Positions 36,920 through 51,840 of a DNA stretch of 64,000 nucleotides are shown piece after piece; position 1 is the first letter of the stretch, and each line of letters begins with the position of its first letter. The DNA is from Pseudomonadales bacterium. Lineage in GTDB: Bacteria; Pseudomonadota; Gammaproteobacteria; Pseudomonadales; JAHRWD01. A program made the position numbers and the translations under genes. The DNA lies in assembly GCA_029210125.1 (NCBI GenBank), contig JARGPR010000002.1:82919-146918 (forward strand), read 5' to 3'. The notes beneath the pieces were generated by a model. That model had not been told where the DNA came from, did no database searches, and was given only the letters and a program-made list of their open reading frames with translations.

Positions 36920-36946
36920 GGAGGGTTTCCCAATGGGAAGCACTCC
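36920..36946. terminator. Imperfect hairpin after the ParA-like gene
   Basis: GGAGGGTTTCCC and GGGAAGCACTCC pair imperfectly around AAT, at the 3' end of the reverse ParA-like gene. No T run follows. Confidence 0.4.
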
Positions 36947-37656
36947 TAAATAGATGCAGTCTGAAGTTGAGCCAGGGCATTTTGTAAACCGGCATAAGCT
37001 TTATTCATCCAAACTTTGGTTCTCTGCCGCTCCATCAGTGAAAGATGGGGTGTGTCACTGCTGCGTATGTTTTGTGCCCCCCAAAAACTGAAACTGAGTT
37101 TGTCAATTTTATTCATGGTTGCCGGGTGTAAAGCGGGCAGTTGTGTTGCGATGACACGACTATCAGCTCCCAGATTGCTGATTATCTGGTCAATACTCTC
37201 AAAATTGCTGCCACGACCGAGGTTTTTCACAACAATACAATTTAACTTGCCATTGTATTTTTCGAGGAATTGCTCCAGTAAACCAGCGGAATCAGTACCA
37301 TCGTCGATCATATACCAATAAGCTAAGGGGATTCCCATCTCCTGACAGAGCTCTAGTACACCACTCTCTTCGAACCAGCGATCCAGAAAGCGTTCACTTT
37401 GAGCTGGCAGATCGAGAAGAATATTAATATCCTCTTCAACGGCAGCTTCGATAATTGCATCACTGCTCTCAAACTCGTCCAGCTGCACTGGCTGAGTATA
37501 CTCTCCGTAGAAGCGGCTCAATGTCGCATGTGACTGGTCGGCATCCAGCCCCAGGTACTTTTGACCCCCATCGAGAAAATACTGAGACAGGAGTCTCGCA
37601 CATACAGATTTTCCAACGCCGCCTTTTTCGCCACCGATAACATGGATAGTACTCAT
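36946..37656 (-). CDS. ParA/MinD-like ATPase
   Basis: About 236 residues. GGEKGGVGKS is a deviant Walker A as in ParA/MinD proteins. The later switch-like LDADQSHA and ILLDLPAQ stretches match less well to typical family signatures. The frame is open to 37695 but ATG at 37656 (MSTIHVIGGEKGG) starts directly at the domain. No ParB or plasmid gene is nearby, so it is an orphan; a role in positioning or accessory function is only inferred. Confidence 0.75.
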   Translation of the reverse strand: MSTIHVIGGEKGGVGKSVCARLLSQYFLDGGQKYLGLDADQSHATLSRFYGEYTQPVQLDEFESSDAIIEAAVEEDINILLDLPAQSERFLDRWFEESGVLELCQEMGIPLAYWYMIDDGTDSAGLLEQFLEKYNGKLNCIVVKNLGRGSNFESIDQIISNLGADSRVIATQLPALHPATMNKIDKLSFSFWGAQNIRSSDTPHLSLMERQRTKVWMNKAYAGLQNALAQLQTASI

Positions 37657-38113
37657 TCTGTAGTTTCCTCTGCTGAATGATAAATTCCGCTGCAAAAATA
37701 GCGGGTAAAGTGCCGGCCATATAACAGCATTTTGTCACAGGTATTCGGCTTGAACTGGTATTGAAGGCTCGATTGTACTCGACATTGCCGACCCATTTCC
37801 TCTGCTTTTAACGCTTCATTTTGTGACATACTGATAAGCGCTCTATTAAAGGCCTTCTATTATTTTGGCCGAATAATTATGGCTGTGACGATAGGCTTTA
37901 TGCGCGACAGTGCTGCTTATTCATTAATCAATACTTTTAGAAAAGTAACTAGCCGGACATCGTTGTGGCCCTGGCAAACACACACAAAACAGAATCGGTT
38001 ATACCCGGGTAAACTCAAACTCCAATTCTACTTATAGTCTTAGCTAATTTGCAGATTTGGAAAGCAGCAGTGTAACCTGCCCAAACCATACAAAGATAAA
38101 AAAGGATACTAAA
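37657..38113. other. Intergenic region with no recognised feature
   Basis: About 450 bases between the divergent ParA-like gene and a broken SDR gene. No gene, tRNA or clear repeat is recognised. Confidence 0.4.
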
Positions 38114-38955
38114 ATGCAAAACACATCGACTGACATGACCGGGAAAACCTGCCTCGTCACAGGCGCCAACTCTGGAATTGGTTTGGAAACGGCTAAGGGT
38201 TTGGCTGCATTGGGTGCTGACTTGATTCTTGTCTGCCGGGATCCTCAACGGGGAGAAAATGCCCGAAAGGAGATTATTGCGACTACCGGTGTTGATCGCA
38301 TTGATCTATTAATTGCGGATATCTCTCTGATGGCATCGGTACGAGAACTCGCAGATCAAATAAACCGAGACTACCCGCAGCTTCATGTGCTGATCAATAA
38401 CGCTGGTGTGATGTTAAGCAAGCGACAATTAACTTCCGAAGGCTATGAGATGCAGTACGCGGTGCACCATCTGGCTCCCTTCTTACTTACGCATCTGCTT
38501 CTAGATAAGTTAAAGGCAAGTAGTCCTGCACGCATCATCAATCTCACCTCAAAAATGCACACATGAATAGAATTGATTTTGATAACCTGCAAGCAGAAAA
38601 AAAATTCGGATCGTTTAAAACCTACGCTGCATCAAAACTAGCAAATATAATGTTCACCTACTCCCTTGCGGAACGTATAGAGGGCACGGGGGTCACTGTG
38701 AATTGCCTTCATCCCGGCGTCATCGCCTCCAATATTGGCTCAACACCGGGTTTTATTAAGATGTTCATGAAGTCACCACGAAAAGGTGCAGAAACATCTA
38801 TTTATTTGGCTACCGAACCTGAGTTAGAAGATATAAACGGCAAGTATTTTATGGATAAAAAACCACGTACTTCATCAAAAGACAGCTACGATAAAGTGGT
38901 AGCCAACAAGCTTTGGGCACTCAGTTTGGAGCAAACCGAGCTAATTGAGCTATAA
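38114..38955 (+). pseudogene. Short-chain dehydrogenase split by a frameshift
   Basis: Two overlapping frames together make one SDR of the retinol-dehydrogenase-like group. The first (from ATG 38114, AAAGGA upstream) holds the NAD(P)-binding TGANSGIGLETAKGL and NNAGV; it ends at a TGA at 38564-38566. The second starts in a different frame at 38563 and holds the catalytic Y-A-A-S-K and the rest. A one-base loss near 38560 would restore continuity. The ATGA overlap could allow re-initiation, but neither half would be active alone, so loss of function is likely. A sequencing error cannot be ruled out. Confidence 0.7.
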
Positions 38956-39245
38956 GGCGAGTGAGACAAAACCCGCCATGTACTAAATCTTTACCTCAGG
39001 CGGATGTTGCTCCAATTAACTTGCGACAGCATACAATACCGCGAGTCACCAATTTGTGATGGATACCCAGCATCCAGTGGTTACGAATATTGCCGGAACC
39101 ATGAACGAGCGGTTTACCTCAAACATAACAAACTCAAATACTGACTGAATGATAATTGAAATACGGTGATGCTAGCAACGCCATGACCGAAGCCACTGTT
39201 TGCCCCCAACAACGGAACAAAAACCATTTAGCAGGGACGCGTAAA

Positions 39246-42200
39246 ATGTCATTTTTTAAACGCTCTTTTATCCGCTCATTAATAGGGTGCTGCCTAATCT
39301 ACACAGCACCTGTTTTTAGTGAGGTCGCACTTTCCAATAATGACAACGTGATCCCGGAGGCGCTAAAGGCCTGGGTACCCTGGGTGCTAAAAAACCATAC
39401 TGACCATGGTTGTCCGCATATCGCTTCTACCCCCCGCTCAAAGAGTGACTCAAAGCCATGCGCCTGGCCGGGCCAACTAACGGTGGAGCTATCAAATAAC
39501 ACTGCCCGTTTTAATCAAAGTTGGCAACTATTTGGTAAAGACTGGGTGGTACTCCCCAGCGCAAACGGACACTGGCCGACCCAAGTTGTGGTCAACAATA
39601 AACCCGCTACTGTGGTTGAAAAAAATGGACAACCCGCACTGCAACTTGCACAGGGTAACTACCAGGTTAGCGGTGAGTTCAACTGGCACAAAGCACCACA
39701 GTACCTTTCCGTTGCACCTGAAACGGCGCTGGTTCGTTTGCTACGAAAGGATCAAACGATACCCACTCAATTAGATGAGCAGGGCCGGCTCTGGCTACGC
39801 GATCAACAAACTAACCGCAAAAATAACCAGGAAAGCGATCAGCTCAAGGTTGAGGTGTTCCGTATGTTGCAGGATGATATTCCCGTGCAGCTGGAAACCG
39901 AGCTACGGTTGGCGGTAGCGGGTAAACCACGCGAAATAGTATTGGGTCAGCTATTGCCCGATGGCAGTGAGATTATACAGTTCAGCTCATCGCTTCCCGC
40001 ACGTATTGAAGATGATGGCCGTTTGCGCATTCAGGCCCGAGCCGGTCAGTGGGTCATTCATCTGACCTCAAGGTACCTAAATCCGGCACCACAATTGAAG
40101 ATGAAAAAGATGGATGCGCGATGGCCCGATCAGGAAATCTGGAGCTTCAGAGCGAACCCTGGTTTACGCGGAGTTAACGTGTCGGGTGCGCCCGCCATTG
40201 ATCCATCACAGATCAATATTCCAGCCCGGTTTGCCAATTTACCAACCTACCTATTATCTAGTGAACAGACATTGGTTCTGACGGAACAGTACCGTGGTGA
40301 TGCATCGCCCGCTGCTAATCGGCTCAACTTAGATCGCGAGCTTTGGCTTGATTTTGATGGTCAGGGTGCCACCACAAAGGATCTGATTAACGGTACGTTT
40401 ACCCACGGCTGGCGTTTGAGCTCATCCCCTGAATTGCAATTGGGCCGGATTGTCGCCAATGGCAGGCCTCAACTAGTGACACGGATGCCTGGTGAGCCAG
40501 GGGCGGGTATTGAGATCCGCCATCCGCAGGTTGAAATAGAAGCGATCAGTCGTATTGAAGGTTTTTCTTCCGTTTCCGCTTCTATTTTAGCTACCGGTTG
40601 GCAACATAATTTTGACAGCGTGAATACACGCATGCATCTGCCCCCTGGCTGGCAATTATGGCATGTGGTGGGCCCGGATCGAATCCAGAATTCCTGGTTT
40701 TCACACTGGGATTTATGGAGTCTATTTATCTGTCTATTGATTGTTGGCGCGCTATTTCGTGTGCTCAACTGGCGCTGGGCAGCGGTAGGTGCCATGACGC
40801 TTGCGCTCACCTATCATCAATCCGGTGCACCGCTGGTTGGCTGGGTAATATTGGTAACACTACTTCCGTTGTTAAAAGTGGTACCGGAGGGAAAACTAAA
40901 ACAACTGCTGAACTGGGGCGCTCATCTAACCTTTACAGCCACCGTACTGGTGGTGATTGGTTTTGCGGTGACCCAGATCCGCATTGGAATATACCCTCAA
41001 CTGGAACGGCATCAAGCTATCAATACAGGAATCTACCGTTCCAGTGTCACCACCGATAGCGTAAAACAAAATGCAGCTACGATGGAGTTGGCCGAACAAT
41101 CCGATCATATGCTGAGCAAGGGATCCAGACTCGAGTACTCAAAACGACGATCGCTACCTGAACCCCAAACTAAACAACGCTATCAACCCGCGGACAATGT
41201 GCAGACTGGCCCAGGTCAGCCTTCGTGGCAATGGCAGCAGATGAGGCTTGGCTGGACAGGTCCGGTCAAAATAGATGCGCCATTAACCCTGTACCTGTCA
41301 CCCCCCTGGTTAACCCGCTCGCTGAAATTTGTTCAAATTGCGCTGGTGTGCCTGCTGCTTTATGGTCTTGGAGGTCGGTTGTTAAAGGAGCACTGGATCT
41401 TTGCTTCCCGTTCTTCCAAAAAAGAAGGGGGTAGCGAACCAACTGACCAAAATAACGGGTCTGGCGGCGGAGTCCTGACGACTGTGCTGTTCTTCTGTCT
41501 GGTTTCTCTGGGGCAGTTTGCCAGCCCGGATCTACAAGCCAGCCCATTCCCACCCCCTGCTCTATTAAAGGAGCTTGAAACCAGACTAACCAAAGCGCCC
41601 ACCTGCGTGCCCCACTGCGCCTCGATACAGAGCAGCCATATTTCTATCAACAAGCAGGACATGATATTGCGGCAACGGATCAGTGCTGCCACTTCATTGG
41701 CGTTCCCTCTACCCTTCGATAACAGCTGGCGCCCTGTTTCGGTTTTAATCGATGGCCTGGCCAGTCCGCTGGCAAGAAATAATGCTAAACACTGGATCAA
41801 TGTAACCGCAGGCAACCATGAAATCATCATGACTGCTGCCTTGAATGGCGATAACATTTCCATCCCCTTTGCCCTTACCCCTCACAATACCTCGGTCAAA
41901 GCACCGGGCTGGAATATCAGCGGTCTGCGAAACGGGCAGGTAACCGGTGGTACCTTACAGTTGGATAAAAAGGTAAAGCAGGTAAAACAGGACAGCCTGC
42001 AGCCAACAGCGATCAAACCCTTTGTGCGGATACAACGGCAACTTAATGCCGACCTCGACTGGAAATTAATCACTACCGTTACCCGTATAGCACCCATTAA
42101 CGGCACCATTAATTTGCGTATCCCGCTGTTGCCTGGTGAGTCAGTAGTGACACAAAACACCGTTGTCGAGCAACAACACGTATTGGTAAACCTTGCCAAT

Positions 42201-43472
42201 AATCAACGGCAGATACGCTGGCACTCGGTGATCAAACCTGAAGAGTTGCGGGTTTTACAAGCATCCAATAGCATCCACGGGGTTGAGCACTGGCAGATTA
42301 TGGCCTCCACTCGCTGGCATATTACTGGTGAAGGCATAGCACCGGTGAAAACCAACCGTTCGAATGGTCCCGCGATCCAGCTATGGCGCCCCTGGCCCGG
42401 CGAATCACTCACGCTAAAAGCAGTAAGGCCTGACCCCGTAGCTGGCCCTACCACTACCATCGAAAGTGTTGAACTGGATCACCGGCCCGGTGCAAACAAC
42501 GCTGCATTAAAGCTGTCGATGAAAATGCGTACCAGCCTCGGTGGTGACTACCGTATTCCTCAACCTGCCGGTGCAGAATTACAATCCGTTGTGATTGATG
42601 GTCGTGAGCAAACATCACCGACCCAGAATGAATATGTGGTCATTCCGCTGCGTCCAGGCTTACAAAAAATTGTAGTGAACTGGCAGCTCAGTTCCGGCAT
42701 AGATCAAACCACCATGACACCTGGGTTTAAGCTACCGACACCGGCTAATAATATCGATATCAAACTCACCTTGCCCCACGATCGCTGGCCTATATTCATC
42801 AATGGTCCCAACATCGGCCCAGCCATGCTCTATTGGGGTGTACTGGCGGTAATATTGGCGATTGCGGTTGGCCTGGGGCTGTTGATTAAGCGGCAGGCCC
42901 TGTCAATCCCGTTGAACACACTGCAATGGCTGCTGCTTGCCCTGGGAATGAGTACCGTCAATATGGCCGGCAGTATCCCGGTAGTGCTGTGGTTTTTTGC
43001 GATGGAAGCGCGGCGACATAAACCCGTTCCTGCATCCTCACGCTGGTTTAATATCAGCCAGATTGGTCTGATAGGCTTATCCGCCATCGCGCTGGTAAGC
43101 CTGTTCTCCACCATTCCCCAAAGCCTGTTATCGGCACCGGATATGCAGGTAACCGGCAATGGCTCAAGCAACTATTTTTATCAGTGGTATCAGGATCACA
43201 GCAGTGATCAACTACCCCAAGCCTGGGTGTTTAGTGTTCCTTTATACGTGTTTAGAATCGCCATGTTGCTATGGTCAATCTGGATTGTATTTGCACTACT
43301 GAACTGGATTAAATGGGGCTGGCAATCAATTTCGGCTGGGCAGCTGTGGGATCACACAGCCTCAGTTCGAACGAAAAAATCTAAAAGAAAAATGAAAGAT
43401 AAAAACGAAGCGGCCGAAGAAGGAGCCAAAGAAAATGCCGAGCCTGTATCTGAAGATAAATGGCTTGAGTAA
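39246..43472 (+). CDS. Large membrane-anchored protein of unknown function with two similar halves
   Basis: About 1408 residues. I do not recognise the family. A signal peptide (FIRSLIGCCLIYTAPVFSEV) is followed by a ~450-residue beta-rich periplasmic region and a cluster of hydrophobic segments (about 490-610). A second, similar layout follows: another membrane span, a beta-rich region beginning SPFPPPALLKELETRL, and a second cluster of segments near the end (about 1200-1370). The halves share patterns, e.g. MHLPPGWQLWHVVGPDR versus LTLPHDRWPIFINGPN just before the membrane clusters. The C-terminal tail is highly charged. The frame extends to 39156, but ATG 39246 gives the signal peptide. 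A role in envelope assembly is only a guess. Confidence 0.75.
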   Translation: MSFFKRSFIRSLIGCCLIYTAPVFSEVALSNNDNVIPEALKAWVPWVLKNHTDHGCPHIASTPRSKSDSKPCAWPGQLTVELSNNTARFNQSWQLFGKDWVVLPSANGHWPTQVVVNNKPATVVEKNGQPALQLAQGNYQVSGEFNWHKAPQYLSVAPETALVRLLRKDQTIPTQLDEQGRLWLRDQQTNRKNNQESDQLKVEVFRMLQDDIPVQLETELRLAVAGKPREIVLGQLLPDGSEIIQFSSSLPARIEDDGRLRIQARAGQWVIHLTSRYLNPAPQLKMKKMDARWPDQEIWSFRANPGLRGVNVSGAPAIDPSQINIPARFANLPTYLLSSEQTLVLTEQYRGDASPAANRLNLDRELWLDFDGQGATTKDLINGTFTHGWRLSSSPELQLGRIVANGRPQLVTRMPGEPGAGIEIRHPQVEIEAISRIEGFSSVSASILATGWQHNFDSVNTRMHLPPGWQLWHVVGPDRIQNSWFSHWDLWSLFICLLIVGALFRVLNWRWAAVGAMTLALTYHQSGAPLVGWVILVTLLPLLKVVPEGKLKQLLNWGAHLTFTATVLVVIGFAVTQIRIGIYPQLERHQAINTGIYRSSVTTDSVKQNAATMELAEQSDHMLSKGSRLEYSKRRSLPEPQTKQRYQPADNVQTGPGQPSWQWQQMRLGWTGPVKIDAPLTLYLSPPWLTRSLKFVQIALVCLLLYGLGGRLLKEHWIFASRSSKKEGGSEPTDQNNGSGGGVLTTVLFFCLVSLGQFASPDLQASPFPPPALLKELETRLTKAPTCVPHCASIQSSHISINKQDMILRQRISAATSLAFPLPFDNSWRPVSVLIDGLASPLARNNAKHWINVTAGNHEIIMTAALNGDNISIPFALTPHNTSVKAPGWNISGLRNGQVTGGTLQLDKKVKQVKQDSLQPTAIKPFVRIQRQLNADLDWKLITTVTRIAPINGTINLRIPLLPGESVVTQNTVVEQQHVLVNLANNQRQIRWHSVIKPEELRVLQASNSIHGVEHWQIMASTRWHITGEGIAPVKTNRSNGPAIQLWRPWPGESLTLKAVRPDPVAGPTTTIESVELDHRPGANNAALKLSMKMRTSLGGDYRIPQPAGAELQSVVIDGREQTSPTQNEYVVIPLRPGLQKIVVNWQLSSGIDQTTMTPGFKLPTPANNIDIKLTLPHDRWPIFINGPNIGPAMLYWGVLAVILAIAVGLGLLIKRQALSIPLNTLQWLLLALGMSTVNMAGSIPVVLWFFAMEARRHKPVPASSRWFNISQIGLIGLSAIALVSLFSTIPQSLLSAPDMQVTGNGSSNYFYQWYQDHSSDQLPQAWVFSVPLYVFRIAMLLWSIWIVFALLNWIKWGWQSISAGQLWDHTASVRTKKSKRKMKDKNEAAEEGAKENAEPVSEDKWLE

Positions 43473-46077: not shown

Positions 46078-48930
46078 ATGCCCAGCAAAAGACACCGTAA
46101 TAATAAGAACATATGGCCGGCAAGACTCAAGTTTTCCGCTATCACAATTGCTGTCATTTCGCCTCTAGTAGCGGCGATCTATTTTTTTGTTTTTTACGAG
46201 CCTAGCCTTACGGACCAACAATATTTCGACAACGCCCAACAACATTATCAAAACGGTGAATCTCGCGTTGCTATCATCGAGCTAAAAAACGCAATACAAA
46301 CCAACCCTAATAATAAAGAGGCTCGGTTTCTTCTTGGGAAAATATACCTTGAGTTAGAGCAGGGAGCTTCCGCCGAAAAAGAACTGGAACGCTCCGCCGG
46401 GTTCAAAACAGACCCCCGTGAACTAAAACAGATGCTAGCCCAGGCAAAATTATTACAAGGTAAACCCAAGGAAGCATTGGAGAAATTAACCTCAAGCGCA
46501 ACTGGGTCAACGCCATTTTCCTACCAGGAAAACCTTTTAGTCGGCCGAGCGTATTTTGACATGCGTGAGTGGGCTAATGCCACCGATGCGTACAACCTGG
46601 CCCTAACCCAACGCCAGGGTTCAATCAAAGCAACCGTTGCACTGGCACGAATTGCATTTATTAAGGGCGATGTAGCCATTGCCAAAACACATTTGGATAA
46701 ACTCGGCGAGCGTGCAAATAACAACTGGCAGATATGGTCGTTAAAAGGTGATATCGCACGGACAGAAAAACAGATGGCAATCGCAAAACAAGCCTATCAA
46801 AAGGCCTTCGAGCTCAAAACCAACGCAATTGAACCGCGGCTTTTTCACGCGATAATTGCGCTTGCAGAAAAGAGCTTCGATGAAGCAAGCCAAGATGCAA
46901 AGATGCTATTAAAAATCAACCCGAAACATCCCGCAGGGCACTATATTCAAGGACAACTGCATCTCAGTAAAAAACAATTGAAGGAAGCACAATCCAGCTT
47001 CGAAGAGGCCATCCGATATATCGATTATATGCCTGCATTTCGTCAACTAGGTATCGCCCATTTCCAGCAAGGAAACCTTATTCAGGCTGAGGAGTACCTG
47101 AAAAAATACGTCGCGCTCGCTCCCAAGGATATCGATGCCCAAAAGGTACTTTCTGCTATTTATGTCAAACAAAACAAGCTCGATGATGCCAAAAGCACCC
47201 TGAAGTCAGTTGCGAGCGATGCGACCCTTAATGAGCCGTTGCAGCGGATGATGGCGGGACTTGAGCAAGCCACCGGCGAGCCGGAAAAAGCGACCGATAT
47301 CCTCAACGATCTTCTCGGCAAGAATCCGGAGTCACTTGAAACACGCCTTCAACTTGGGCAAACCCTTCTACGACAAGGCAAGACCGAGGAAGCACTGGCG
47401 GTGTTAACACAAGCAGATAGTAATGATCCTGCTTCCGTAAAAATCAAACTGCTTATCATCAATGCACAGCTACAACTAAAGCAATATGAAGCAGCACTCG
47501 CTGTTTCCAGGCAGATACAACACCTCGAACCTAACAACCCACAATTTTCTTCCATTGATGGGCTTATATATTTGGCTAGCGGCAACCAGAAACAAGCTAT
47601 AAAAGTTTTCGAGCAAAGCCAAGCCAAATACCCTGGCGAGATCATCTCCGGCAGTCAACTTGGCACCATTGCCATCCGAGCCAAGCAGTACGAAAAGGCA
47701 AAAAATTATTACGAGACTATTCTCTCTCACCATGAGAACCACCTACGTAGCCAGATTCAGCTTGGGTTAGTTGAAAGGGCGCTAGGGCATCCTGAACAGG
47801 CACAAAACATTCTGGAAGCGGCTATTCAAGCGCACCCTAAAAATCCAAGACCAAAACTAATGCTGGCTCATTATTACCTTGTGAACAACGAGCCTCAAAA
47901 AGCATTCAACTGGCTGGGACAAATCAGTGAAAATGGAAAGCAATCGGCAAACTATTTGCGCACTCTAGGGCAAGCCTACTTACTCAACCAGCAAGCTGAG
48001 CAAGCTACGGATGCATTGGTCAAATTGAACGCGATCCAACCTACCCCTGCTAACTATTGGCTGGAGGCAAAGGCACGGTTTCTACAAAAAGACCTTGAAG
48101 GTAGCCGGAAGGCATTATTACAGGCTAAAAAAATGGACCCCGACAATAGTCAGGATTCAATCAATGCCGCACTGTTTGAAATTTTGGTAACTGAAACTGA
48201 AATAGCTATTCAACAGAAAAACTACGCTGTAGCCAAAAAAGGGCTCGCAGAAATAAAAGGTCGCCAAAACCCCCTTCCCTACCTGGTTTTACGCGCCCGC
48301 TTCGAGCAATCGAAAGGAAATCTTGATACCTCTGCCGAGCACTATCAAAAAGCGTTGGATATAAACCCGCAGTCGGAAATAATGGCATCCTTGCTAATGG
48401 TTTTAAGTCAATCCGGACATACGGATGAGGCAGAAAAAAAAGCCAGGCAATGGCTGAAAACACATCCTGAGGATGACGAAATTGCATTGCTGCTAGCGAA
48501 CACACTACTAAACAGCGATCGTACTGCAGAAACCATTCAACACTACGAAGAGCTCCTTCCCAAACAGCCCGATAATGTCATTGTGCTTAACAACCTCGCC
48601 TTTCTTTATATCGATAGAGACCTCGAAAAAGCGGCACAATATGCAGAGAAAGCCTATAAACTAGCCCCCAAATTTCCTGCCGTAGTAGATACCTATGGCT
48701 GGATTACGCTTAAGCGGGGGCAACACCACAAAGCTCTTAGTGCCTTATCCAAGGCCCACACATTAGATCCAAATGAACCCAGTATCCAATATCATCTTGC
48801 TGCCGCGCAGGCTAAAAATGACAAAAAACTGGCTGCGATAAAATTGCTTCGAGAGTTATCGAATAAAGATTTTCCGGAAAAAACTGAAGCCAACGCGTTA
48901 CTCTCCTCCCTTGAATGGAAGCCTGAGTAA
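46078..48930 (+). CDS. prsT: XrtA-system TPR-repeat protein, PrsT-like
   Basis: About 950 residues, nearly all TPR repeats from residue ~50 on (e.g. AIIELKNAIQTNPNNKEARF, with similar units repeated through the chain). The pattern matches PrsT, the TPR protein of PEP-CTERM/exosortase A loci, thought to help export or assemble the exopolymer. Known PrsT proteins begin with a lipoprotein signal; here the N-terminus is KFSAITIAVISPLVAAIYFF, a membrane anchor with no lipobox cysteine. It starts the XrtA-associated cluster. Confidence 0.85.
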   Translation: MPSKRHRNNKNIWPARLKFSAITIAVISPLVAAIYFFVFYEPSLTDQQYFDNAQQHYQNGESRVAIIELKNAIQTNPNNKEARFLLGKIYLELEQGASAEKELERSAGFKTDPRELKQMLAQAKLLQGKPKEALEKLTSSATGSTPFSYQENLLVGRAYFDMREWANATDAYNLALTQRQGSIKATVALARIAFIKGDVAIAKTHLDKLGERANNNWQIWSLKGDIARTEKQMAIAKQAYQKAFELKTNAIEPRLFHAIIALAEKSFDEASQDAKMLLKINPKHPAGHYIQGQLHLSKKQLKEAQSSFEEAIRYIDYMPAFRQLGIAHFQQGNLIQAEEYLKKYVALAPKDIDAQKVLSAIYVKQNKLDDAKSTLKSVASDATLNEPLQRMMAGLEQATGEPEKATDILNDLLGKNPESLETRLQLGQTLLRQGKTEEALAVLTQADSNDPASVKIKLLIINAQLQLKQYEAALAVSRQIQHLEPNNPQFSSIDGLIYLASGNQKQAIKVFEQSQAKYPGEIISGSQLGTIAIRAKQYEKAKNYYETILSHHENHLRSQIQLGLVERALGHPEQAQNILEAAIQAHPKNPRPKLMLAHYYLVNNEPQKAFNWLGQISENGKQSANYLRTLGQAYLLNQQAEQATDALVKLNAIQPTPANYWLEAKARFLQKDLEGSRKALLQAKKMDPDNSQDSINAALFEILVTETEIAIQQKNYAVAKKGLAEIKGRQNPLPYLVLRARFEQSKGNLDTSAEHYQKALDINPQSEIMASLLMVLSQSGHTDEAEKKARQWLKTHPEDDEIALLLANTLLNSDRTAETIQHYEELLPKQPDNVIVLNNLAFLYIDRDLEKAAQYAEKAYKLAPKFPAVVDTYGWITLKRGQHHKALSALSKAHTLDPNEPSIQYHLAAAQAKNDKKLAAIKLLRELSNKDFPEKTEANALLSSLEWKPE

Positions 48931-48986
48931 CCCTCGATAGCCATACACCTAAATAATGAATAACCACTGAGCCAAACTCATATTTT

Positions 48987-50588
48987 ATGCCTACACTGTT
49001 ACACAATCTGCTCACAAACAGCACCAACCAACGACCAGATGCGACAGCACTCGTTCACAAAAAACAAAGCTGGAGCTATCAAGAGCTTACCCGCCTGACC
49101 TCTGATCAGGCCCATGCGCTGGTCGCTGCCGGCCTGACCAAACAGCACCGTGTTGCGATATACCTACCCAAACAACTGGAAACAGTTAGCAGCATGCTCG
49201 CTACTTCGATGGCCGGAGGCGTATTTGTACCTATCAATCCGGTACTCAAAGCGTCACAAACGGGCCATATACTGAACGACTGCAACGTACAAATTTTAGT
49301 CACATCAAAAAACCGTTTAAACATGCTGGCGGAAGTACTTGGGCAATGTCCTGACCTCAAAACGGTTATTTTGGTCGATTCTGAAAACACCCAAGTTGAA
49401 ACATTAAAGCGTATTGAAATACTCAGCTGGTCACTATTCTTGCAGGGTGGACATAGCGAAACCACTTTACCCTCGGTGATCGATACCGATATAGCCGCCA
49501 TTCTTTATACATCCGGAAGCACTGGAAAACCCAAAGGTGTAGTGCTATCTCATCTTAATATGGTTGCCGGAGCACACAGTGTCGCAGAGTACCTGGGCAT
49601 CACCAACACGGATCGCTTACTAGCGGTTTTACCCTTCAGTTTCGATTACGGATTAAACCAGCTCACCAGCTCCTTACTGCAGGGCGGTTGCTGCGTAATC
49701 ATGGACTACCTATTGCCACGGGATGTCATCAAAGCAGTACAAAAGCATCAAATCACCGGCCTCGCAGCAGTACCACCTTTGTGGCTACAACTGGCGGGAT
49801 TGGAGTGGCCCGAGGGTATCAGCCAGCATCTTCGCTACATGACCAACTCCGGCGGAAAAATGCCGACCCCTGCGTTAAATAGCCTGCGCGAATCCGTACC
49901 TGGGTGTCAGTTCTTTCTGATGTATGGGCTCACGGAAGCGTTTCGTTCTACCTATTTGCCTCCAAATCAAATTGATCGTCGCCCAGATTCCATCGGTAAA
50001 GCTATTCCCAACGCTGAAATCAATGTCGTCAGACCTGACGGCAGCCTATGTAACCCCGGCGAAACTGGCGAACTTGTTCACCGTGGCTCCCTGGTTGCAA
50101 TGGGTTACTGGAACGACCCGGAAAAAACCGCTGAACGTTTCAAACCCTGCCCCTCGCCAGTAGCCGGATTACCTCTGACCGAAATGGCCGTGTGGTCAGG
50201 CGACAGTGTCACAATAGATGAGGAGGGTTATCTCTATTTTGTTGGACGCGAAGATGAGATGATCAAAACCTCCGGCTACCGGGTCAGCCCTTCGGAGGTT
50301 GAAGAGGTCATTTATGCCAGCAAGCTGGTTCCCGAAGTCGCGGTACTGGGTGTCCCACACCCAACTCTTGGGCAGGCGATTATTGCGGTCATTGATGCGG
50401 GGGAAGCCTCCAATTTTAATCCCGATGAAATTACCAACTTTTGTAAGCGTGAGCTACCCAATTTCATGGTTCCCTCTGAGATCAAAGTAATCGGCCCGTT
50501 GCCCAAAAACCCTAACGGAAAAATCGACCGCTCACTACTAAAAAAACAGTATCAAGATTTTTACACTTCGACTGCATCCAACGTTTAG
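48987..50588 (+). CDS. AMP-forming acyl-CoA ligase, exosortase A system-associated
   Basis: A 533-residue adenylate-forming enzyme matching TIGR03098-type ligases. The phosphate-binding ILYTSGSTGKPKG begins at residue 172; the conserved VGREDEMIKTSGYR and NPNGKIDRS (carrying the catalytic Lys) lie near the C-terminus. It likely activates an acyl group and loads it on the acyl carrier protein encoded nearby. The PLP decarboxylase follows 10 bases later, so both are one operon, behind prsT. Confidence 0.92.
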   Translation: MPTLLHNLLTNSTNQRPDATALVHKKQSWSYQELTRLTSDQAHALVAAGLTKQHRVAIYLPKQLETVSSMLATSMAGGVFVPINPVLKASQTGHILNDCNVQILVTSKNRLNMLAEVLGQCPDLKTVILVDSENTQVETLKRIEILSWSLFLQGGHSETTLPSVIDTDIAAILYTSGSTGKPKGVVLSHLNMVAGAHSVAEYLGITNTDRLLAVLPFSFDYGLNQLTSSLLQGGCCVIMDYLLPRDVIKAVQKHQITGLAAVPPLWLQLAGLEWPEGISQHLRYMTNSGGKMPTPALNSLRESVPGCQFFLMYGLTEAFRSTYLPPNQIDRRPDSIGKAIPNAEINVVRPDGSLCNPGETGELVHRGSLVAMGYWNDPEKTAERFKPCPSPVAGLPLTEMAVWSGDSVTIDEEGYLYFVGREDEMIKTSGYRVSPSEVEEVIYASKLVPEVAVLGVPHPTLGQAIIAVIDAGEASNFNPDEITNFCKRELPNFMVPSEIKVIGPLPKNPNGKIDRSLLKKQYQDFYTSTASNV

Positions 50589-50598
50589 CATCTAAAAA

Positions 50599-51840
50599 AT
50601 GGCCAAAACCCCACCAAAACACCATCCGAGTATCATTGACTCCTTCGCGATAAAAAAACATAACCTTACAGTAGGTAATCAGTCACTCTCACAACTGGCT
50701 GAGCGAGTGGGACAAACCCCGTTTTACGCCTACGATCGCTCAAAGATGACACACCGACTCAGACAGCTTCGCAGCCAGATGCCTGATGATTTGAAGATTC
50801 ACTACGCAATGAAAGCCAACCCAATGCCGGCGGTCGTTCAACATATGGCAGGCATTGTCGATGGTTTAGATGTTGCCTCAGCGGGTGAGATGAAAGTAGC
50901 GTTAGACACCGGCATGTCGGCGCAACAGATCAGCATGGCCGGTCCAGGAAAGCGCCCCGTTGAACTGGCACAAGCCGTCGCCGCGGGCATCACGATTAAC
51001 GTCGAATCCTTTAACGAACTTGAAGAATTAGCCCGACAGTCAAATCGCCTAGGAATTGCAGCCACTGTCGCGGTGCGGATTAACCCGGCATTTGAGCTTA
51101 AATCCTCGGGCATGAAGATGGGCGGTGGCCCCAAACAGTTTGGGGTGGATGAAGAACAGGTTCCCATTCTGCTCAAACGAATAGCTGAGCTTGAGCTCGA
51201 CTTTGCAGGTTTTCATATTTTCAGTGGTTCACAAAGCCTGAAACCTGAAGCGATCATTGAAGCACAACACAAAAGTATTGAGCTGGCTATCCAGCTCGCA
51301 GATAGCTGCCCCGGGCCTATTCGAAAACTGAATATCGGTGGTGGGCTTGGGATCCCCTATTTCCCCGGCGAATCACCTCTGGAGATTGAACCGATAGGTC
51401 ATGCACTGGCCAAACAGATGCAACGGGCCAAACAATACCTGCCGGAAGCATCCGTAATTGTTGAACTTGGCCGCTATCTAGTTGGAGAAGCGGGGGTCTA
51501 TGTAACCCGGATCGTGGATCGTAAGGTATCGCACGAACAATTTTTTTTGATTACCGATGGAGGCCTTAATCATCATCTGTCAGCTTCCGGAAACTTTGGT
51601 CAAACGATTCGCAAAAACTATCCAGTGGCCATTGGAAATAAAATGAACTGGCCACAAAAGGAGATTGCATCAGTAGGAGGACCACTCTGTACTCCATTAG
51701 ATTTACTTGCAGACAAAATGGAATTATCAAAAGCGGAAGTTGGAGATCTATTTGTTATTTTTCAATCCGGAGCTTATGGATACAGTGCGAGCCCAGCGAT
51801 GTTTTTGAATCAAACCAAGGTTATCGAAGTGCTGGTCTGA
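50599..51840 (+). CDS. PLP-dependent decarboxylase, exosortase A system-associated
   Basis: A 413-residue fold-type III decarboxylase (ornithine/DAP/arginine decarboxylase 2 family), matching TIGR03099. PLP lysine is K72 in HYAMKANP; the glycine-rich phosphate site is LNIGGGLGIPYFPGE and the C-terminal GAYGYSASPAMFLN completes the active site. It belongs to XrtA loci; its substrate is unknown. It converges on hydrolase 1 with a 27-base gap. Confidence 0.92.
   Translation: MAKTPPKHHPSIIDSFAIKKHNLTVGNQSLSQLAERVGQTPFYAYDRSKMTHRLRQLRSQMPDDLKIHYAMKANPMPAVVQHMAGIVDGLDVASAGEMKVALDTGMSAQQISMAGPGKRPVELAQAVAAGITINVESFNELEELARQSNRLGIAATVAVRINPAFELKSSGMKMGGGPKQFGVDEEQVPILLKRIAELELDFAGFHIFSGSQSLKPEAIIEAQHKSIELAIQLADSCPGPIRKLNIGGGLGIPYFPGESPLEIEPIGHALAKQMQRAKQYLPEASVIVELGRYLVGEAGVYVTRIVDRKVSHEQFFLITDGGLNHHLSASGNFGQTIRKNYPVAIGNKMNWPQKEIASVGGPLCTPLDLLADKMELSKAEVGDLFVIFQSGAYGYSASPAMFLNQTKVIEVLV

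Follow-up and report, generated by a model that had tools for sequence, protein, structure and literature searches.

A gene of 1408 codons plus stop on the forward strand of a Pseudomonadales bacterium genome (positions 39246-43472 of the 64,000-nucleotide stretch of contig JARGPR010000002.1, GenBank assembly GCA_029210125.1, that was analyzed here and is called the window below) encodes, we propose, an inner-membrane polyprotein that arose by tandem duplication and fusion and that a predicted signal peptidase I cut would divide into two paralogous subunits. We put the probability of this reading at roughly 0.6. It is carried by the homology of the two halves of the protein, which share one predicted architecture, and by the segment between them, which in its make-up looks like a cleavable signal peptide. 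An earlier note, made from the letters of this DNA, had described an unplaced 1408-residue protein with two similar halves; the coordinates it gave for the open reading frame (ORF) are borne out by the ORF listing. The signal-peptide-like junction and the fold related to M1 aminopeptidases and ribophorin go beyond what it had claimed.

The comparisons below draw on 89 loci, namely the best 80 of at least 566 relatives, 8 further loci and the window itself, with ORFs outside 1250-1550 aa excluded. Four partial or broken copies (L008, L010, L022 and L086) were left out of the family alignment, in which the whole gene is aligned over 85 near-full-length members of 1322-1523 aa. When this alignment is cut at the linker and the two resulting profiles are compared with hhalign, half A matches half B with a probability of 98.2% and an E-value of 5e-14 over 483 columns; with the halves aligned independently the E-value is 5e-15, and the two comparisons extend over 483-494 columns. 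For the periplasmic parts, which match at E 5.6e-13 over 389 columns, reversing half B reduces the match to E 0.11, and the best of 30 column shuffles reaches E 0.076. The match persists when the two halves come from sets without shared organisms (E 6.1e-11 and 1e-13). In 5 of the 28 genomes in which a half-B hidden Markov model has a match, the model also recognizes half A within the same ORF, with E-values from 3.4e-7 to 2.3e-4. The similarity goes unseen in a single-sequence BLASTP comparison of half against half (E 0.34).

Among the beta domains of the periplasmic parts, A1 and B1 are clearly related (E 8e-12), the pairs A2-B2 (E 0.005) and A3-B3 (E 2.9e-4) match weakly when compared singly, and domains 2 and 3 of both halves taken together give E 7.6e-7. 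Domain B1 also matches B3 (E 9e-9), which suggests that some of the beta domains may themselves be repeats. The motif LPPGWQLWHVVGP (residues 465-477, positions 40638-40676), directly before the transmembrane (TM) cluster of half A, and the motif LPHDRWPIFINGP (residues 1176-1188, positions 42771-42809), directly before that of half B, are matched to each other in the half-versus-half alignment; P466, G468 and W469 are found in at least 99% of the 85 members, and R1180, W1181, G1187 and P1188 in at least 95%. These motifs, together with a beta-rich periplasmic region followed by a membrane cluster in each half, had led the earlier note to suggest an ancient internal duplication. The pairing of the motifs stands in the profile alignment, the twofold layout is seen both in the hydrophobicity profile and in the two AlphaFold models, and the duplication itself is supported by the profile comparison with its controls and by the same predicted architecture, the halves being homologous over their periplasmic parts.

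AlphaFold models were obtained for half A (residues 28-735, mean pLDDT 85.8) and half B (residues 758-1385, mean pLDDT 89.4). The structure alignments held 71 rows, that is, the window protein and 70 of 78 members; seven near-duplicates (80% identity) and L031, which contains unknown residues, had been removed, and six more were left out. The same helix and strand layout is predicted for both halves: it begins with a helix that carries two invariant cysteines and continues with about three beta domains and a cluster of four TM helices, after which a periplasmic hairpin leads to the fifth TM helix. In the models half A has 34 + 2 strands and half B 32 + 2, with 4 + 1 TM helices each, and half A shows one additional helix, which lies in a low-confidence loop.

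All parts lie on the forward strand. The protein opens with a hydrophobic segment read as an N-terminal signal peptide (residues 1-25, positions 39246-39320), whose predicted cut, VFS↓EV, was placed by eye. Half A then comprises the helix with Cys56 and Cys72, both present in 85 of 85 members (39327-39461, from the alignment and AlphaFold), about three beta domains (residues 73-486, 39462-40703, divided by eye on the AlphaFold model), four TM helices (residues 490-582, 40713-40991, from hydrophobicity and AlphaFold), the QTGPG motif with a periplasmic beta-hairpin (residues 653-685, 41202-41300), followed by the fifth TM helix (residues 687-725 of the AlphaFold model, 41304-41420). The internal signal-peptide-like segment (residues 741-765, 41466-41540), where signal peptidase I is predicted to cut after codon 765 (LQA↓S), leads into half B, for which the same sources place the helix with Cys787 and Cys791, again in 85 of 85 members (41556-41618), about three beta domains (residues 792-1186, 41619-42803), four TM helices (residues 1196-1295, 42831-43130), a PDM...GNGSS...WYQD segment with its periplasmic beta-hairpin (residues 1298-1332, 43137-43241), one of the best-conserved stretches, and lastly the fifth TM helix (residues 1333-1362, 43242-43331). 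The invariant cysteine pairs may form disulphides. The share of columns conserved at 90% or above is highest in the two periplasmic hairpins (12/45 and 11/40, the latter over residues 1293-1332) and in TM B5 (9/36); next come half A's last beta domain (37/183) and half B's TM cluster (20/112). Given this peak of conservation in the hairpins and TM B5, we locate the working site on the membrane's outer face.

In Foldseek searches Ost1/ribophorin I ranks first for both halves and M1 aminopeptidases occupy most of the remaining listed rows; the rows between them belong to antibody, integrin, axonemal and TRAPPII chains, which we take for chance matches. The N-domain of M1 aminopeptidases (1z1w, 4pw4) is matched by half A (model 330-658) with Z 12.6 and 3.0 Å over 144 residues, and by half B (model 310-574) with Z 14.4 and 2.7 Å over 149 residues, so that the last beta domain plus hairpin of each half is predicted to adopt this fold. 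Because the aligned ranges run from the last beta domain to the hairpin that follows the TM helices, the four-TM bundle appears to be inserted within the M1-N-like domain, which the hairpin of half A completes in the structure alignments; the half-A VIA alignments to M1 chains, as listed, stop at model residue 657-659. The match to Ost1 scores Z 13.0 for half A and Z 15.2 for half B, yet the rmsd of the superposition is large (18-31 Å in the listed rows), and the domains therefore match one by one and not as a rigid body. What the Ost1/ribophorin I ectodomain (8agb chain E) would share with each modeled half is a set of non-cytoplasmic beta domains preceding a membrane anchor. The halves described here differ from it in having their last beta domain interrupted by four TM helices, in the Cys-pair helix and in the presence of two copies per gene, and they have neither a sequence match to Ost1 nor an STT3 partner in the genomes surveyed.

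The segment at the junction was compared with the N-terminal signals and with the other hydrophobic segments of the protein. Its median hydrophobic length is 14 residues, next to 15 for the N-terminal signals, 18-25 for A5, B1, B4 and B5, and 14-15 for A1 and A4. In 82 of the 85 members the segment is followed by a small-x-Ala site, and the same holds for 46/46 further rows, among them one split gene, in which the signal is N-terminal. The site has A, V, S or T at position -3 in 70/85 members and 36/46 further rows; at four other segments that end on the periplasmic side, these residues stand at -3 in 9, 4, 33 and 2 of the 85 members, and in 7/44 and then 10, 14 and 4 of 46 further rows. Typical junction sites are AYA↓E, VYA↓D, VQA↓A and AQA↓E. 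No two of the further rows are identical over their final 400 residues, and three rows that also belonged to the family set had been removed; in each row, the hydrophobic segment nearest the anchor was taken, a rule that may err in a few long-spacer rows and that was written after viewing these rows, which are hence no clean hold-out.

Cleavage sites were also scored with a prokaryotic signal-cleavage count matrix, in which absolute scores are approximate. The junction scores at least 3.5 in 85/85 members, compared with 82/85 for the N-terminal site; its median of 8.7 stands beside 9.1 for the N-terminal signals and is the highest among 11 hydrophobic segments scored in equal windows. The spacer between the site and Cys787 ranges from 21 to 71 residues, and in long-spacer rows (for example L012-L015, L053 and L076) the site still adjoins the hydrophobic stretch, as a signal peptide would predict. 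Column 765 is Ala in 76% of the sequences, and the variable linker has no column at 90%.

A natural separation of the halves is found in genome G086 (100% complete), where they are two genes on different contigs with open frames flanking both (L092, 1356-3428, reverse strand; L091, 931-3081, forward strand). Its half A is an open frame of 717 codons that stops just past the fifth TM helix, and its half B, of 691 codons, has its own Met and an N-terminal signal (MNFKRK...LTYAES) followed by the spacer. Although a single case, it demonstrates that separate genes can encode the two halves, with an ordinary signal in place of the junction. A tree of the B halves pairs that of G086 with a fused member from its own GTDB family (local support 0.995, the deeper forks being weak), and the split looks, on these sequences, like a later fission. 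The G086 half B also lies closely downstream of a 177-aa frame on the same strand, with which it may form an operon. Elsewhere, one gene copy (L166, G737:C11) is interrupted near residue 500 by about 1 kb, maybe a mobile element.

We propose the following route from gene to product. An ancestral gene for one Sec-exported membrane protein would have been duplicated in tandem and its copies fused. In the present protein, the N-terminal signal would be removed and half A would insert so that its beta domains lie in the periplasm while the fifth TM helix ends in the cytoplasm; from there a short linker would lead into the second signal, which would restart export for half B. Signal peptidase I would then cut after Ala765 to release two paralogous subunits of 5-6 TM helices. 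Less surely, these subunits would stay associated and form a pseudo-twofold heterodimer. In it, the conserved residues near the outer face (LPPGW...D, QTGPG, RW...GP..GPA..FWG and GN.SS...WYQD) would make up a site that accepts a membrane-bound or lipid-linked substrate, and the M1-N/ribophorin-like domains would provide binding or scaffolding surfaces and not a peptidase. The fuller picture, of a widespread polyprotein whose two ribophorin-I-like paralogous subunits are cut at an internal signal kept since the fusion and form a pseudo-symmetric heterodimer round an outer-face site, is tentative, and we hold its chances to be somewhat below even.

With such a polyprotein a single gene would yield two membrane proteins through signal peptidase, an arrangement uncommon in bacteria, and the fusion would ensure that the two partners are made in equal amounts and paired. 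The cytochrome b/c1 polyprotein FbcH of Bradyrhizobium japonicum provides a precedent, in which two membrane proteins encoded by one gene are separated by signal peptidase at an internal signal. The two products of FbcH are unrelated, whereas those considered here would be paralogues, and their cleavage is a prediction. A legend in PMC12456017 gives fbcH as a single gene for a cytochrome b/c1 subunit. Our literature search, which covered titles and the beginnings of abstracts, found no description there of the present family or of FbcH processing, and passages of PMC3668242 hold nothing relevant. The proposal would further place M1-N/ribophorin-like domains, known from the eukaryotic oligosaccharyltransferase, in bacterial inner-membrane proteins, where a four-helix membrane bundle inserted within a beta domain would be an unusual arrangement.

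Several observations weigh against a duplicated and cleaved polyprotein. With regard to the duplication, the TM parts of the halves compared alone fall short of significance (E 0.049), and when half B is shuffled 30 times in 20-column blocks the best E-value is still 6.9e-8 (score 67, against 105 in the real order), a similarity that probably stems from surviving homologous blocks and related beta domains. With regard to the junction, a plain small-x-Ala site occurs at the four control segments in 60, 5, 56 and 9 of the 85 members and in 37/44 and then 11, 28 and 9 of 46 further rows; the high values (60/85 and 56/85; 37/44 and 28/46) belong to the ordinary TM helices A2 and B2, which mostly have L, I or V at -3. 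The contrast at the junction therefore depends on the residue at -3 and on the matrix. There, TM B5, the scored end of which is presumably cytoplasmic, comes close behind the junction (median 7.9 against 8.7), and in 54/85 proteins some position outside both signals scores higher. The window's own site, LQA↓S, is modest, with a score of 4.8 and rank 14 in its protein. A looser small-x-small rule failed to discriminate the junction, and a first automatic rule gave a site in 34 of the 46 further rows, having chosen the wrong hydrophobic segment in several. G086 is the sole genuine split found among the half-length or broken copies examined; seven others are explained by contig ends (G499, G731, G736, G164 and G240), an interruption (G737) or a frame break (G285), and the check left aside other partial matches such as G082, G232, G725 and G739. 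The heterodimer and its substrate site are drawn from conservation and topology, and neither a partner gene, across the 89 loci, nor a phylogenetic association, with exosortase or STT3, was found. These points bear on the chief alternative, in which the junction is an uncleaved signal-anchor and the protein remains a single chain with the topology 2 × (1 TM + periplasmic domain + 5 TM) of the resistance-nodulation-division (RND) exporters. RND exporters are the product of a parallel internal duplication and have, per half, 1 + 5 TM helices and a large periplasmic part. This protein shares that layout, since each half has one hydrophobic segment ahead of a large periplasmic part with five TM helices after it, and in most members seen the halves are fused, as a single chain would have them. 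A signal-anchor is less easily reconciled with the signal-peptide make-up of the segment (median hydrophobic length 14, although A1 and A4 are similar at 14-15), with a small-x-Ala site that keeps to the segment end despite a variable spacer, and with a genome that encodes the halves separately. The likeness to RND exporters has its limits as well: the periplasmic domains are beta-rich here and include an M1-N-like one, and a beta-hairpin lies between the last two TM helices. The window protein has no sequence match to an RND family or RND PDB chain (Pfam, NCBIfam and PDB), and no RND fold is among the listed structural matches of either half, for which the TM bundle alone was not searched. 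We consider an uncleaved, RND-like single chain rather unlikely, and favor the cleaved polyprotein.

Three functional alternatives fare less well. A row of exosortase-A-associated genes (positions 46078-51840), comprising a PrsT-type tetratricopeptide repeat protein (TIGR02917), an acyl-CoA ligase (TIGR03098) and a pyridoxal phosphate-dependent decarboxylase (TIGR03099), lies just downstream, and XrtA is encoded elsewhere on the contig, beyond the window (G000:C8:163933), which could make the protein part of an exosortase-A/PEP-CTERM surface-polymer system. Exosortase does not, however, co-occur with the gene to a significant extent, being present in 16/38 gene-bearing genomes versus 84/274 overall (p 0.13), or in 10/38 versus 51/274 when it is required to score above the family cut-off (p 0.19), and the neighbors are not conserved; we rejected this link for want of significant co-occurrence and regard it as very unlikely. 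The counts here and below use 38 of 40 positive genomes, G060 and G102 having been dropped as weak partial matches. The first rank of Ost1/ribophorin I for both halves might instead point to a bacterial counterpart of Ost1 that presents substrates to an oligosaccharyltransferase, yet the STT3-type catalytic subunit (PF02516), found in 5/274 genomes of the class, is present in 0/38 of those with the gene, and the ribophorin family (PF04597) is absent among the Pfam matches of the window protein and of the halves of 71 members. The M1-N fold by itself may account for the structural match, and with the STT3 link rejected on the count of 0/38 we find an Ost1 counterpart highly improbable. That fold is also what speaks for an active M1-type peptidase, a reading we consider next to impossible: the HExxH zinc motif occurs in 0/85 members, which rules out a zinc peptidase of that type, the window protein has no Peptidase_M1 match in Pfam, and its domain, in contrast to that of the M1 enzymes, is interrupted by a membrane bundle.

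The statement of the earlier note that the protein belongs to no recognizable family holds for our sequence searches of Pfam, NCBIfam and the PDB. A Pfam scan of the window protein with E up to 1 returned only DUF2846, below cut-off, and scans of either half of 71 members with E up to 0.1 returned scattered weak matches (YfhO in 2/71, DUF2846 in 1/71). The NCBIfam scan of the window protein found nothing near any cut-off, a single-sequence search of the PDB with it gave 0 matches, and in a PDB search with the family profile all matches had E >0.3. A scan of named genomes gave at least 585 pattern matches, at least 566 of which encode relatives, so that hundreds of members in several phyla are without a name in Pfam or NCBIfam. 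By their record titles, the best 80 relatives include many Methylococcaceae, together with Chromatiaceae, Cellvibrionaceae, Thiotrichaceae and Aeromonadaceae, among the Gammaproteobacteria, and, outside that class, Mariprofundaceae, Thermodesulfobacteriota, Myxococcota, Nitrospirota and Acidobacteriota. The relative in Azoarcus sp. KH32C, annotated as a hypothetical protein, is the one that lies on a plasmid record.

The distribution is patchy. The gene is present in 40/274 genomes of the class in an evenly drawn sample, two of the 40 being weak partial matches, and the second half in 28/398 evenly drawn genomes of the phylum, two of these as short fragments. Eight of 56 close relatives carry it, the window's own genome included; the only other congeneric genome searched lacks it, and in two genera of another class it occurs in 1/8 and 1/7 genomes, some of them incomplete. 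No gene neighbor is conserved across the 89 loci, the largest neighbor cluster being found at 12/89, and since many of the loci have short flanks these counts are lower bounds. ORFs on the same strand within 150 bases number 34 upstream and 28 downstream and are of many kinds; the ORFs were called crudely, and spurious frames are among them. An accessory function is more likely than a core one given this patchiness, which together with the lack of a conserved neighbor speaks against a core assembly factor; the earlier note's guess of a role in envelope assembly has the location alone in its favor and remains a guess. Two open frames weakly share one beta domain with half B, one of about 1025 aa in L096 (250-3324, reverse strand; E 9.6e-6) and one of about 1097 aa in G707:C159 (E 5.3e-5). 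The L096 frame begins, by eye, like a signal peptide, and the two are perhaps a distant single-copy relative family.

The host genome is a 3.13 Mb draft in 31 contigs, 99.8% complete, with a single copy of the 1408-codon gene. The ORF starts at ATG 39246, 8 bases downstream of a Shine-Dalgarno-like AGGGA read in the sequence (39233-39237, forward strand), and TTG 39156 is a possible upstream start in the same open frame. The next gene, on the opposite strand, encodes an MsbA-related ATP-binding cassette transporter. Upstream, a short-chain dehydrogenase/reductase-like reading, recognized by eye at 38057-38955, is split over the overlapping ORFs 38057-38566 and 38563-38955 and is possibly a frameshifted gene. 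Farther upstream, a lone ParA/MinD-like ATPase (36946-37695, reverse strand), with a weak match far under cut-off to a TraL (conjugal transfer) model, NF010461, might be a relic of a plasmid or of an integrative and conjugative element.

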